Assembly (NCBI GenBank): GCA_015067375.1 | Contig: SVMQ01000034.1 | Location: 1-13,723 of the forward strand | Direction of reading: 5' to 3' | Length of the DNA stretch: 13,723 nucleotides | Source: Oscillospiraceae bacterium | Lineage (GTDB): Bacteria; Bacillota; Clostridia; Oscillospirales; Ruminococcaceae | In this document: in pieces, positions 5,454 through 8,865 of the stretch | How the letters are laid out: each line of letters begins with the position of its first letter | Numbering within the stretch: the first letter of the stretch is position 1 | The notes under the pieces: model-generated | What the model was told of the DNA's origin: nothing | Seen by the model: the letters and a program-made list of their open reading frames with translations, nothing else | The model's database searches: none | Program-made: the position numbers and the translations under genes

Positions 5454-7391
5454 TTATCTTATTGTGCTGCCGTTGGGTGTGTCGCTGTCAAGGAACAGCA
5501 CGCGTACATCATTGTCGCCTGCATCACACGCGAGTATCATGCCCTGGCTCTCTTCGCCGCAGAGCTTTGCGGGAGCAAGGTTTGCAACGAACACGATCTT
5601 CTTGCCGATAAGTTCCTCAGGTGTGTACCACTGTGCGATGCCCGAAACGATCTGTCTGCCGCCTCTGCCGTCGTCTACCTGTAGCTTGAGCAGCTTCTTT
5701 GCCTTCTTTATCTTCTCGCAGGCTGTTATCTCGCCGCTTCTGAGCTTGACGTTTGCAAATTCCTCGATACCGATGATGTTAGCCTTGTCGAGATCCTCGT
5801 CCTCGCGGTATTCCTGCTTGGGTGCGAGCATTGCGTTAAGCTCCTCGATCTCCTTGTCCATGTCTATTCTGGGGAAGAGAACGTCGCCCTTCTTTACTGT
5901 AACGTCAGCGGCAAGTGTGCCGAATACATTGAGTGTATCGTAGCTTGTGCAAGCCTCGCAAGCGCCGATCTGCTCCCATACCTTGGGCATTGTCGTGGGC
6001 ATGAACGGGAACAGCAGACCCGAGCAGATGCGTACTGTTTCGAGCAGGTTGTAGAGAACTGTCGCAAGTCTTGTCTTGTTAGCCTCGTCCTTTGCGAGTA
6101 TCCAGGGTGCAGTCTCGTCGATATACTTGTTTGCGCGGGAAACTACCTTGAATATCTCCTCAAGTGCCTTGGAGAGCTGTGCCTCGTCAACAAGGGGAGC
6201 GATCTTGTCGCGCAGTGCGGTCGCCATGCTCTTGAGCTCGTCGTCGAGAGCGTCAGCCTGTCTGTCCGTGGGCAGAGTGCCGCCGAAGTATTTTTCAACC
6301 ATCGCAACGGTACGGGAAACGAGGTTTCCGAGATCGTTTGCGAGGTCTGTATTGATGCGACCGATCATGATCTCGTTGGAGAAGTTGCAGTCGCTGCCGT
6401 AGGGCATATCGCGGAGTATCTGGTAACGTACTGCGTCAACGCCGTAGCGCTCACCGAGGATGAACGGATCAACGACATTGCCGAGAGATTTCGACATCTT
6501 AGCGCCGTTGAATGTGATCCAGCCGTGACCGTAAAGGCGCTTGGGGAGCGGCTCATCCAGCATCATCAGGATTATAGGCCATACGATAGAGTGGAAGCGC
6601 ACGATCTCCTTTGCGGTCATGTGCATATCAGCAGGCCAGTACTTGTTGTAGTCATCGTAAGCGTCGTTTTCGTAGCCGAGCGCCGAGATATAGTTTGTGA
6701 GCGCGTCTACCCATACATATACGACGTGCTTGGGGTCGAAGTCAACAGGGATGCCCCATGTGAAGCTCGTTCTGGATACGCAGAGATCCTCCAGACCTGG
6801 CTTGATGAAGTTGTTGACCATCTCGTTTACGCGGCTCTTGGGCTGGAGATAATCGGTTTCTGTGAGGAATTTCTCGATCTTATCTGCAAAGTCGGACAGG
6901 CGCAGGAAGTATGCTTCCTCGTTTGCGTCGATGACCTCTCTGCCGCAGTCGGGACACTTGCCGTCAACGAGCTGTGACTCTGTCCAGAAGCTCTCGCAGG
7001 GTGTGCAGTACTTGCCTGTGTACTTGCCCTTGTAGATGTAGCCCTTGTCGTACAGCTTGCGGAATACGCTCTGTACGGTCTTGATGTGATGATCGTCAGT
7101 TGTGCGGATATAGCGGTCGTAGCTGACGTTCATGAAGCTCCACAGCTTCTTGAAGTTGTCAACGATGGGATCAACGTACTCCTTGGGGGTAACGCCGATC
7201 TCCTTTGCCTTGTTCTCGATCTTCTGACCATGCTCATCCGTTCCTGTCAGGAACATCACGTCATATCCCTGCATCCTCTTGAAGCGCGCGATGGAGTCAC
7301 ACGCAACAGTCGTATAGCAGTGACCGATATGGGGATTGCCCGAGGGGTAGTATATCGGGGTGGTTATATAAAACTTTTCTCCATTACTCAT
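5454..7391 (-). CDS. metG: Methionyl-tRNA synthetase with C-terminal tRNA-binding domain
   Basis: Class I aminoacyl-tRNA synthetase charging tRNA-Met, 645 residues. The HIGH signature is at 21-24 (GNPHIGHCYTT), LTGTDEHGQK at 48-57, a single Cys4 zinc knuckle at Cys129, Cys132, Cys146 and Cys149, a GIPVDFDP..VVYVWVDAL block near 213-231, and KMSKS at 298-302. An anticodon-binding helical domain follows. The last hundred or so residues form an EMAP-II/Arc1p-like tRNA-binding OB domain (VKLRSGEITACEKIKKAKKL, then a GKKIVFVANLAPAKL segment) that aids dimerisation and tRNA binding. The start ATG 7391 has a GAGGT site 10 nt upstream and fits the family; an upstream in-frame ATG at 7430 would add 13 residues with no good ribosome site. 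It has its own promoter, and its 5' leader of roughly 75 nt is too short for a T-box. Confidence 0.97.
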   Translation of the reverse strand: MSNGEKFYITTPIYYPSGNPHIGHCYTTVACDSIARFKRMQGYDVMFLTGTDEHGQKIENKAKEIGVTPKEYVDPIVDNFKKLWSFMNVSYDRYIRTTDDHHIKTVQSVFRKLYDKGYIYKGKYTGKYCTPCESFWTESQLVDGKCPDCGREVIDANEEAYFLRLSDFADKIEKFLTETDYLQPKSRVNEMVNNFIKPGLEDLCVSRTSFTWGIPVDFDPKHVVYVWVDALTNYISALGYENDAYDDYNKYWPADMHMTAKEIVRFHSIVWPIILMMLDEPLPKRLYGHGWITFNGAKMSKSLGNVVDPFILGERYGVDAVRYQILRDMPYGSDCNFSNEIMIGRINTDLANDLGNLVSRTVAMVEKYFGGTLPTDRQADALDDELKSMATALRDKIAPLVDEAQLSKALEEIFKVVSRANKYIDETAPWILAKDEANKTRLATVLYNLLETVRICSGLLFPFMPTTMPKVWEQIGACEACTSYDTLNVFGTLAADVTVKKGDVLFPRIDMDKEIEELNAMLAPKQEYREDEDLDKANIIGIEEFANVKLRSGEITACEKIKKAKKLLKLQVDDGRGGRQIVSGIAQWYTPEELIGKKIVFVANLAPAKLCGEESQGMILACDAGDNDVRVLFLDSDTPNGSTIR

Positions 7392-7472
7392 AGTATAAAA
7401 TACCTCTTTTTCTACAATTTTTAATAACATTTCAGAAAAACAAAGTTCCCCAAAATATATTTATTCCATTTT

Positions 7473-7501
7473 ATTATATTACTTTTTGCGATAATTTTCA
7501 A
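7473..7501 (-). promoter_or_regulatory. sigma-A-type promoter of metG
   Basis: Read on the minus strand: TTGAAA (7501-7496), 17-nt spacer, TATAAT (7478-7473). This is a perfect -10, a 5/6 -35 and optimal spacing, embedded in AT-rich DNA. The predicted start is near 7466, giving a leader of about 75 nt before metG. It faces away from the promoter of the regulator gene. Confidence 0.75.
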
Positions 7502-7549
7502 GCGGCTCGAAAAAAAACAAGAAACTTTTACATATTATATAAAAAAGAC

Positions 7550-7578
7550 TTGATTTTTTTTGTTTTTTTTAGTACAAT
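7550..7578 (+). promoter_or_regulatory. Strong promoter with T-tract spacer upstream of the structured leader
   Basis: TTGATT (7550-7555), 17-nt spacer made almost wholly of T (7556-7570, with one G), then TACAAT (7573-7578). Hexamers match sigma-A at 4/6 and 5/6 with ideal spacing. A-tracts lie upstream (7510-7518, 7541-7546). The predicted start is near 7585. The T-run suggests bent or stiff DNA and may affect promoter strength. Confidence 0.7.
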
Positions 7579-7584
7579 ATAGAG

Positions 7585-7775
7585 TGAGAGTATATACTCC
7601 CTGCGTTAGCTCTGTCATTTTTCGGGGAACCTGATGTGAAAAATGCACAAAGCGGCGCAAACTACATACAGACACAGGAGGCTCAGCTTCCGTCCGACCT
7701 GCCGACCCAGAGGGGTCTGTCCAATGGCTTGGGGAGGAGGAACGGCACTCCGCGACATTCAGAAAGAGGTAAAAA
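7585..7775 (+). ncRNA. Candidate structured RNA (long leader or ncRNA) before the PucR-like gene
   Basis: About 195 nt lie between the predicted transcription start and the regulator's start codon. Although one frame stays open from 7636, the encoded residues look like translated non-coding sequence. Potential helices are plentiful: CATTTTTC (7616-7623) pairs perfectly with GAAAAATG (7638-7645) around a G/A-rich loop, extendable by TGT/ACA with one bulged base; GACCC AGAG GGGTC forms a tetraloop hairpin (7705-7718); ACAGAC (7668-7673) can pair with GTCTGT (7715-7720) to enclose it, or with TCTGT (7611-7615) instead; TGCCG (7700-7704) matches CGGCA (7743-7747); GGAG (7736-7739) matches CTCC (7748-7751). 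There is no internal U-tract terminator, so it reads into the gene. I could not match a T-box, SAM, ydaO, glycine, SRP or RNase P signature. raiA-type RNA and 6S RNA remain untested possibilities. Endpoints are approximate. Confidence 0.5.
7588..7599. repeat. Perfect 12-bp palindrome at the transcription start
   Basis: GAGTATATACTC is fully self-complementary and falls at about +4 to +15 of the predicted plus-strand transcript. This is a natural place for a repressor operator, possibly autoregulation by the downstream PucR-like protein. It could alternatively be a small 5' hairpin of the RNA. Confidence 0.4.
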
Positions 7776-7779
7776 CAAA

Positions 7780-8865
7780 ATGTCCAACAGATTGTTCCAG
7801 GGTATTGTTCATCAGATGAAGGACGCTGTAAACAGAGTTATCGGCGTTATTGATGAAAACGGCACGATCATTGCCTGCAGCGACCTGACCCGTGTGGGCG
7901 GCGGCAACGACTTTTTCTCGATTGAGCTTGGCGATTCCCACGAGGTGTTCATCCGCGACGGCTACACCTACAAGCCTTTCGGTGTTCATGTAAAGCCCGA
8001 CTATGCAGTTTTCGTAGAGGGTACTGACGAGCCTGCTGCAAAGTACGCGAGCGTTATCGCTATCTCCCTTTCGGGCATCAAGCAGTACTACGACGAAAAA
8101 TACGACAGAAACAATTTTGTTAAGAATATCATTCTGGACAACGTGCTGCCCGGTGATATCAGCCTTAAGGCGCGCGAGCTGCACTTCAACGCTGACATCA
8201 GCAGAGTTGTGTTCCTTATCAGCGTTATCAGCTCCAACGATGTTTCCGCTTATGACGTTATCCAGAACCTTTTCCCCGACAAGAACAAGGATTTCGTTTT
8301 CAATATCACAGAAACTGACATCGTTCTCGTCAAGGAAGTTAAGAACAACATCGACGTGCGCGACCTTGAGAAGCTTGCGCGCTCCATTTCCGACACGCTT
8401 TCAAGCGAGTTCTTTACAAAGGTCAACGTTGGTATCGGCACTCCCGTTATCGGCGTAAAGGATCTTGCTCGCTCCTTCAAGGAGGCGCAGACAGCGCTTG
8501 AGGTAGGAAAGGTATTCGATACCGACAAGAACATCGTAAGCTACGACAACCTCGGTATCGCCAGACTTATCTATCACCTGCCCACAACACTGTGCGAGAC
8601 ATTCCTGAAAGAGGTGTTCAAGAAGAACTCCATCGAGTCGCTCGATCACGAAACACTGTTCACTATCCAGAAGTTCTTCGAGAACAGCCTGAACGTTTCC
8701 GAGACCTCCAGAAAGCTGTTCGTACACAGAAACACACTGGTTTATCGTCTTGACAAGATCAAGAAGCTGACAGGCCTTGATCTGCGCGAGTTCGACCATG
8801 CTATAATCTTCAAGATCGCGCTCATGGTCAAGAAGTATCTCGCTGCAAATCCGACAAAGTTCTGA
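7780..8865 (+). CDS. PucR/CdaR-type transcriptional regulator
   Basis: A 361-residue cytoplasmic regulator. Residues 1-105 resemble a ligand-sensing domain of the sugar-diacid-recognition type (LFQGIVHQMKDAVNRVIGVI, then IIACSDLTRVG). Residues about 138-250 form the degenerate GGDEF-like domain of CdaR/PucR proteins (VVFLISVI, VNVGIGTPV, SFKEAQTALEVGK). The C-terminus carries the PucR helix-turn-helix (about 303-345): LNVSETSRKLFVHRNTLVYR, LDKIKKLTGLDLREF. The ligand is unknown; relatives sense purine metabolites or sugar acids. The start ATG 7780 has AGAGGT 9 nt upstream and opens the homologous region. An ATG at 7636 is in frame, but the intervening sequence looks like RNA leader, not protein. 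The gene is monocistronic, closed by a terminator, and sits behind a long structured leader. It does not neighbour an obvious metabolic target. Confidence 0.85.
   Translation: MSNRLFQGIVHQMKDAVNRVIGVIDENGTIIACSDLTRVGGGNDFFSIELGDSHEVFIRDGYTYKPFGVHVKPDYAVFVEGTDEPAAKYASVIAISLSGIKQYYDEKYDRNNFVKNIILDNVLPGDISLKARELHFNADISRVVFLISVISSNDVSAYDVIQNLFPDKNKDFVFNITETDIVLVKEVKNNIDVRDLEKLARSISDTLSSEFFTKVNVGIGTPVIGVKDLARSFKEAQTALEVGKVFDTDKNIVSYDNLGIARLIYHLPTTLCETFLKEVFKKNSIESLDHETLFTIQKFFENSLNVSETSRKLFVHRNTLVYRLDKIKKLTGLDLREFDHAIIFKIALMVKKYLAANPTKF

Follow-up and report, generated by a model that had tools for sequence, protein, structure and literature searches.

The window, the whole 13,723-nt stretch of DNA analysed here, carries metG on the minus strand, a divergent promoter region, a leader and the gene of a PucR/CdaR-type regulator (7780..8865, plus strand), which is followed on its 3′ side by an ABC ATPase gene (ftsE) adjoining that of an FtsX protein, and then by genes for an S41 peptidase and a GreA protein; the labels metG and ftsE were assigned in the present analysis. 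The source genome (G000) is 73.79% complete, and its close relatives bear names such as Oscillospiraceae, Ruminiclostridium and Ruminococcus. Pfam models recognise Diacid_rec-like, GGDEF_2 and HTH_30 regions in the regulator, and it is by HTH_30 (66.8 bits against a cut-off of 27) and GGDEF_2 (52.8 bits against 24.5), both above the Pfam cut-offs, that the protein qualifies as a PucR/CdaR-type regulator. Searches recovered it in 42 of 43 genus genomes and, at E <= 1e-120, in 183 of 197 family genomes, and for a transcription factor it is unusually conserved. The true start codon is that at 7780, the same MSN start being present in all 122 sequences compared, a set that includes duplicate loci. 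Identity of the regulator runs at 91-100% within the genus and, among the matches listed, at 66-88% in other family rows. On its 3′ side ftsE was found in 41/41 relative loci, while divergent metG was found in 40 of the 41 checked; no metG was seen in the remaining locus, where the upstream stretch is short. Relatives retain the order metG / leader / regulator / ftsE at this junction.

Transcription of the regulator would start from a sigma-A type promoter, TTGATT-17-TACAAT (7550..7578, plus strand), which was also seen in the genus leaders read. The initial annotation called it near-consensus; the promoter is indeed present, at a moderate strength of 9/12 to consensus in a pattern scan. Lying upstream of the -35 box and overlapping it is a 33-nt conserved element, TTTACATATTATATAAAAAAGACTTGATTTTTT (7527..7559, plus strand), located by pattern match within an imperfect inverted repeat (dyad 7510-7560) that is 76% complementary. 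Together with the -35 part of the promoter the element is found at <=3 mismatches in 41/43 genus genomes, as a single site in 29 of the 41 and with 1-2 extra, weaker sites elsewhere (2-3 mismatches) in the other 12. The element and dyad are operator-like and form a candidate operator of presumed function, and the dyad may possibly take part in autoregulation of the regulator. A similar sequence was also noted in several sister-genus leaders. Across the genus, the promoter, the upstream element and the start codon 7780 are kept.

The segment of about 195 nt between this promoter and the ATG (7585..7779, plus strand, from a presumed transcription start) is the 5′ leader of the regulator mRNA, as its position between a conserved promoter and a conserved ribosome-binding site (RBS) and ATG bears out. 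A Shine-Dalgarno sequence, AAAGAGG (7763..7769, plus strand), is similar in relatives and predicted unpaired in the window (0.87-1.0). Two AGGAGG strings also occur in the leader (7676-7681 and 7735-7740), neither with a start codon at the usual spacing, and both are absent from G026 and G061. Of the 42 genus genomes with the regulator, about 39 had their leaders read by eye (all but G002, G033 and G065), and loci L047-L050 were assigned to genomes via their coordinates. Eight related leaders (G000, G026, G061, G016, G004, G011, G021 and G014) were compared most closely. These share no start codon or frame, which agrees with the earlier impression that the segment does not look like protein, and no upstream small ORF with a common start codon was found among them. 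A longer fused protein from GTG 7636 was likewise rejected, as its start and frame are not common and the distance from hairpin to ATG varies, out of frame, across the eight leaders. The leader is not, as had been suggested, more GC-rich than its flanks: its GC content of 0.52 is close to that of the flanking coding DNA (0.455-0.55), and the AT-rich DNA nearby is the promoter region only (0.225).

Taken alone, the window leader has an overall structure that is not confirmed beyond chance. It folds at an energy of -57.8, where shuffled versions average -53.85 (z -0.90; 32/200 shuffles equally stable), and with slightly different ends the z score is -1.51 (24/300 shuffles equally stable); the predicted fold consists of several separate stems. 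Whole-leader z scores are negative in all eight leaders (G000 -1.51, G026 -2.63, G061 -1.24, G016 -0.17, G004 -0.94, G011 -3.22, G021 -3.01, G014 -3.89), and those of the 3′ domain range widely (G000 -0.33, G026 -1.88, G061 -2.27, G016 +1.06, G004 -1.25, G011 -1.81, G021 -2.34, G014 -3.00), 258/300 shuffles of the G016 3′ domain being equally stable. In a DNA search of 61 genomes, G026 was the only other genome to match along the full leader (74%); nine more gave short partial matches, of which eight fell next to the gene and one next to the promoter. Outside the hairpin described below, leader identity to the window stays at or below the shuffled maximum in six of seven relatives and exceeds it in G026 only. 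Most of the leader is unconserved, and taken whole it is no conserved RNA; its remainder is best described as fast-evolving sequence prone to stems. One such stem-loop, placed at the 5′ side by folds and alignment (7602..7659, plus strand), contains the perfect 8-bp helix reported earlier, CATTTTTC (7616-7623) with GAAAAATG (7638-7645). This helix is identical in G026; G061 has a rough replacement for it, and none of the other clade leaders showed it.

A single part of the leader stands apart from this pattern. The hairpin GACCC-AGAG-GGGTC, which the initial annotation had picked out, is confirmed at 7704..7717 (plus strand) and forms a conserved core, here termed P2, that is present in 8/8 clade leaders and has pair probabilities of 0.93-0.97 in the window. 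It is enclosed by an inner helix, P1, in which GCC (7701-7703) pairs with GGC (7726-7728) in folds and in the six-species alignment (7701..7728, plus strand), and which is extended outward with gaps in relatives. The outermost of its three inner pairs is G-C in three, U-A in two and C-G in one of the six species, and is also predicted as C-G in G021 (1.00) and G014 (0.30). Between P2 and P1 the alignment leaves a 3′ bulge (7718..7725, plus strand) that measures 8 nt in six of the eight species, with an invariant A at its seventh position in those six; the two remaining species have extra sequence inside the bulge.

Covariation was analysed in the six species with the 8-nt bulge, against 500 shuffles and six slid structures. 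P1/P2 is paired in 87.9% of cells and reaches a covariation score of 0.327 against 0.177 in shuffles, each value being matched by 1/500 shuffles; P2 is paired in 30/30 cells and P1 in 77.8%, and all six slid structures pair less than P1/P2 (35-59%). Pairs with both partners changed are not unusually numerous in these six species (80/500 shuffles reach their number), nor are further pair types (335/500), and two of the slid structures, too, show three double-sided changes. RNAalifold on all eight leaders recovered P2 and not P1, and in G014 an alternative fold rivals P2, whose pairs there have probabilities of 0.2-0.66. As a conserved structure that covaries by some of these measures and lies in the 5′ UTR of orthologues, P1/P2 fits, on 6-8 sequences, the structural description of a cis-regulatory leader element. 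The earlier view of the segment as structured RNA is thereby upheld for P1/P2 and not for the rest of the leader, which is unconserved.

The sequence of the element is as distinctive as its pairing. The longest word common to at least seven of the eight leaders is 13 nt long (GACCCAGAGGGGU, in 7/8); GACCCAGAGGGGT is likewise in 7/8 and CCAGAGGG in 8/8, compared with words of <=5 nt in 200 sets of shuffled leaders. The exact 14-mer GACCCAGAGGGGTC occurs once per genome in 6/43 genus genomes, at the regulator leader; G016 has the variant GGTCCAGAGGGACC, and the G014 version ends in TT. In all, 8 genomes among the 42 of the genus that hold the regulator yielded P1/P2, always in the regulator leader, and the other 34 gave no sign of it (31 leaders by eye, 3 by pattern and model); it is therefore not needed in general. 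A search with model R1 over the 43 genus genomes gave, among the candidates scored, matches in ten at E <= 1 and none at E <= 0.05 away from the regulator. Six of these, the strong ones, are the R1 training sequences, so that the search speaks to the lack of other copies and not to an independent discovery; the G021 leader followed at E 0.055, three more matches (E 0.29-0.37) lie elsewhere and G014 was missed. In the family, 5/118 other genomes matched at E 0.01-0.08, which is chance level among the candidates scored. No convincing copy away from the regulator was thus seen in 43 genus or 119 family genomes among the candidates scored, a set from which divergent copies could have escaped given its limited size and the missed G014. 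On a 40-row tree of the regulator gene all eight carriers fall to the same side of one branch (support 70/86, also seen in 72% of 200 bootstrap trees) and need one change. Three outgroup rows join beside the carriers, which leaves room both for a single gain and for an older origin followed by loss in other members of the genus. The initial annotation would have abandoned a structured RNA had relatives that keep the metG/regulator junction lacked conservation and covariation; that is what most of the leader displays, but not P1/P2.

We propose, as a reading that is probable though far from assured, that P1, P2 with its AGAG loop and the 3′ bulge together form a lineage-specific cis element of a single gene, set in an otherwise unconserved leader and most likely post-transcriptional. 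The P1/P2 core (7701-7728) lies 52-79 nt upstream of the start codon, from where it would act on the regulator mRNA, either as a protein binding site or as a stem altering mRNA stability or RBS access. A metabolite-sensing switch or an attenuator is an unlikely role for it. The element is real, yet small, modest and lineage-limited, without a Rfam match. If functional, it would be a small cis element foreign to Rfam that controls a regulator found in 183 of the 197 family genomes sampled, and it would give a clear example for following the gain and loss of leader RNAs beneath an unchanging promoter and protein.

The alternative that survives best, an unlikely one in our view, is that GACCC-N4-GGGTC is a palindromic DNA site bound by a transcription factor (which may be the regulator) and that the RNA hairpin is only apparent. 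A short palindrome downstream of a promoter would suit such an operator, as would the occurrence of the exact site once per genome, at the regulator locus, in all six genomes that have it. However, the non-palindromic AGAG spacer and its orientation are kept, and the arms are changed in G016 while pairing is retained: two of the five P2 pairs there carry compensatory changes on both sides, and G014 has one G-U pair. P1, moreover, differs in sequence between species, yet pairing persists in part of it. Rather unlikely, too, is that the hairpin has no function and survives in a fast-evolving leader by chance or recent descent. The ordinary folding energy of the window leader, the similarity outside P2 that does not rise above the shuffled maximum in six of seven relatives, and the 34 of 42 genus members in which the element was not found are all consistent with this, but a 13-14-mer kept amid diverging surroundings, with compensatory changes, argues against it.

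A riboswitch, in which the leader would bind a small ligand and toggle exclusive pairings to control the regulator, is improbable. The sequence of the window does hold such pairings, since ACAGAC (7668-7673) can pair with TCTGT (7611-7615; 5 pairs) or with GTCTGT (7715-7720), as was first noted, but the ACAGAC/GTCTGT alternative is present in one of the eight species only, and the mutually exclusive pairings taken at first for a switch are accordingly not a conserved feature. Masking of the RBS is conceivable, as most of its GAGG is predicted to be paired in five of the eight leaders (G016, G004, G011, G021 and G014); yet GAGG is predicted open in the window (0.87-0.95) and partly open in G026 and G061, and where it is paired the partners differ: G011, G021 and G014 use a local hairpin, G016 and G004 sequence far off on the 5′ side. 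Masking may therefore occur, but it is no common trait linked to P1/P2, and with RBS access differing between species no common RBS mechanism is visible. A scan of plus-strand window 7300-7900 found no terminator, and where a riboswitch aptamer would be expected in several genes or lineages, the conserved part here is about 38 nt, small for an aptamer, and was found before one gene in eight species among the candidates scored.

Neither raiA (RF03072) nor 6S (RF00013), both named at the outset as possibilities, nor any other family is supported, for the Rfam search of the window returned nothing at the gathering threshold, as did that of 15 relative loci. Relaxing the search of window positions 7400-7900 to E up to 10 gave eight weak matches, with neither raiA nor 6S RNA among them; PreQ1 was rejected, its weak matches lying in the AT-rich promoter DNA at 16.6-17.8 bits against 39. 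6S RNA is also disfavoured by the predicted fold, which is one of several stems and not of one long hairpin. A stand-alone small RNA (6S-like, raiA-like or new) reading through into the regulator could claim its own promoter and a length of about 195 nt, but it is very improbable given the missing Rfam match, the lack of a plus-strand terminator in window 7300-7900, the recovery of the whole leader in just 1/60 other genomes, and a conserved RBS and ATG directly downstream into which the transcript would read.

Other leaders of the same gene carry hairpins of their own. A different hairpin was seen in six sister-genus leaders (L051:1919-1961, L053:1919-1962, L061:1930-1968, L063:1926-1965, L069:1901-1940 and L118:1935-1972), consisting of an outer stem, a GC or GNC helix of 2-3 pairs, a G, a hairpin, AGA and the partner helix, with stems that covary, for example GAC/GUC in L063 and GUC/GAC in L061. 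A descriptor of this motif, post hoc and drawn from the same sequences, fits 6/129 leaders compared with 3 matches in 20 shuffled sets of 129. MAFFT aligned the motif poorly; model R2, built from two leaders, found L051 weakly (E 0.11) and missed L053, L061 and L063 among 19 loci, and in the family matched 1/197 genomes, at E 0.027 and away from the regulator gene. A GGCACAAA...ACUGUGCA-type hairpin recurs at the presumed 5′ end (first 50 nt) of L029, L031, L034, L035, L036, L037, L040 and other genus leaders. In three of them (L034, L037 and L040) an ACCCC further downstream is complementary to the loop GGGGU, so that a pseudoknot is possible. In the L020 leader (G030) the RBS is immediately preceded by a near-perfect hairpin of ~23 bp, with no counterpart seen among the rest of the leaders that were read, and the L107 leader has tandem CAAGAGAGTCATT-like units upstream of the regulator.

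Speculatively, and with much less confidence than for P1/P2 itself, the regulator leader may have been refitted with different RNA elements in each lineage: the P1/P2 AGAG hairpin, the G/AGA internal-loop hairpin of the sister genera and a GCACA/UGUGC hairpin. The first two would sit within the last ~100 nt before the start codon and the third, in much of the remaining genus, where the transcript presumably begins. If true, cis-regulatory RNA would be turning over fast while the promoter and the protein stay as they are.

Among known systems, C. glutamicum GabR (PMC7652997) belongs, by name, to the same PucR-type family as the regulator studied here, which differs in its place between metG and ftsE/ftsX. 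Going by titles among the papers listed, none treats a leader element of a PucR-type regulator or the present locus, and none turned up for PucR together with leaders or candidate structured RNAs; this covers the papers as indexed, as distinct from motif tables in supplements (PMC8040213, for instance). Riboswitches share with the present leader a structured segment upstream of a gene, whereas here there is no conserved alternative pairing, terminator (in the window), set of multiple gene contexts or Rfam match. The RNAs raiA (RF03072) and 6S (RF00013) are ~200 nt long and resemble the leader in that length only; the leader has no match to either even at E up to 10 (7400-7900) and is unconserved as a whole. 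Although P1/P2 has no Rfam match, was seen in one eight-species group only and would bind a partner that is hypothetical, it resembles the cis-acting protein-binding leader hairpins, of which ribosomal-protein leaders are an example, in being a small hairpin, with a conserved loop and bulge on a stem that varies, placed ahead of one gene's RBS.
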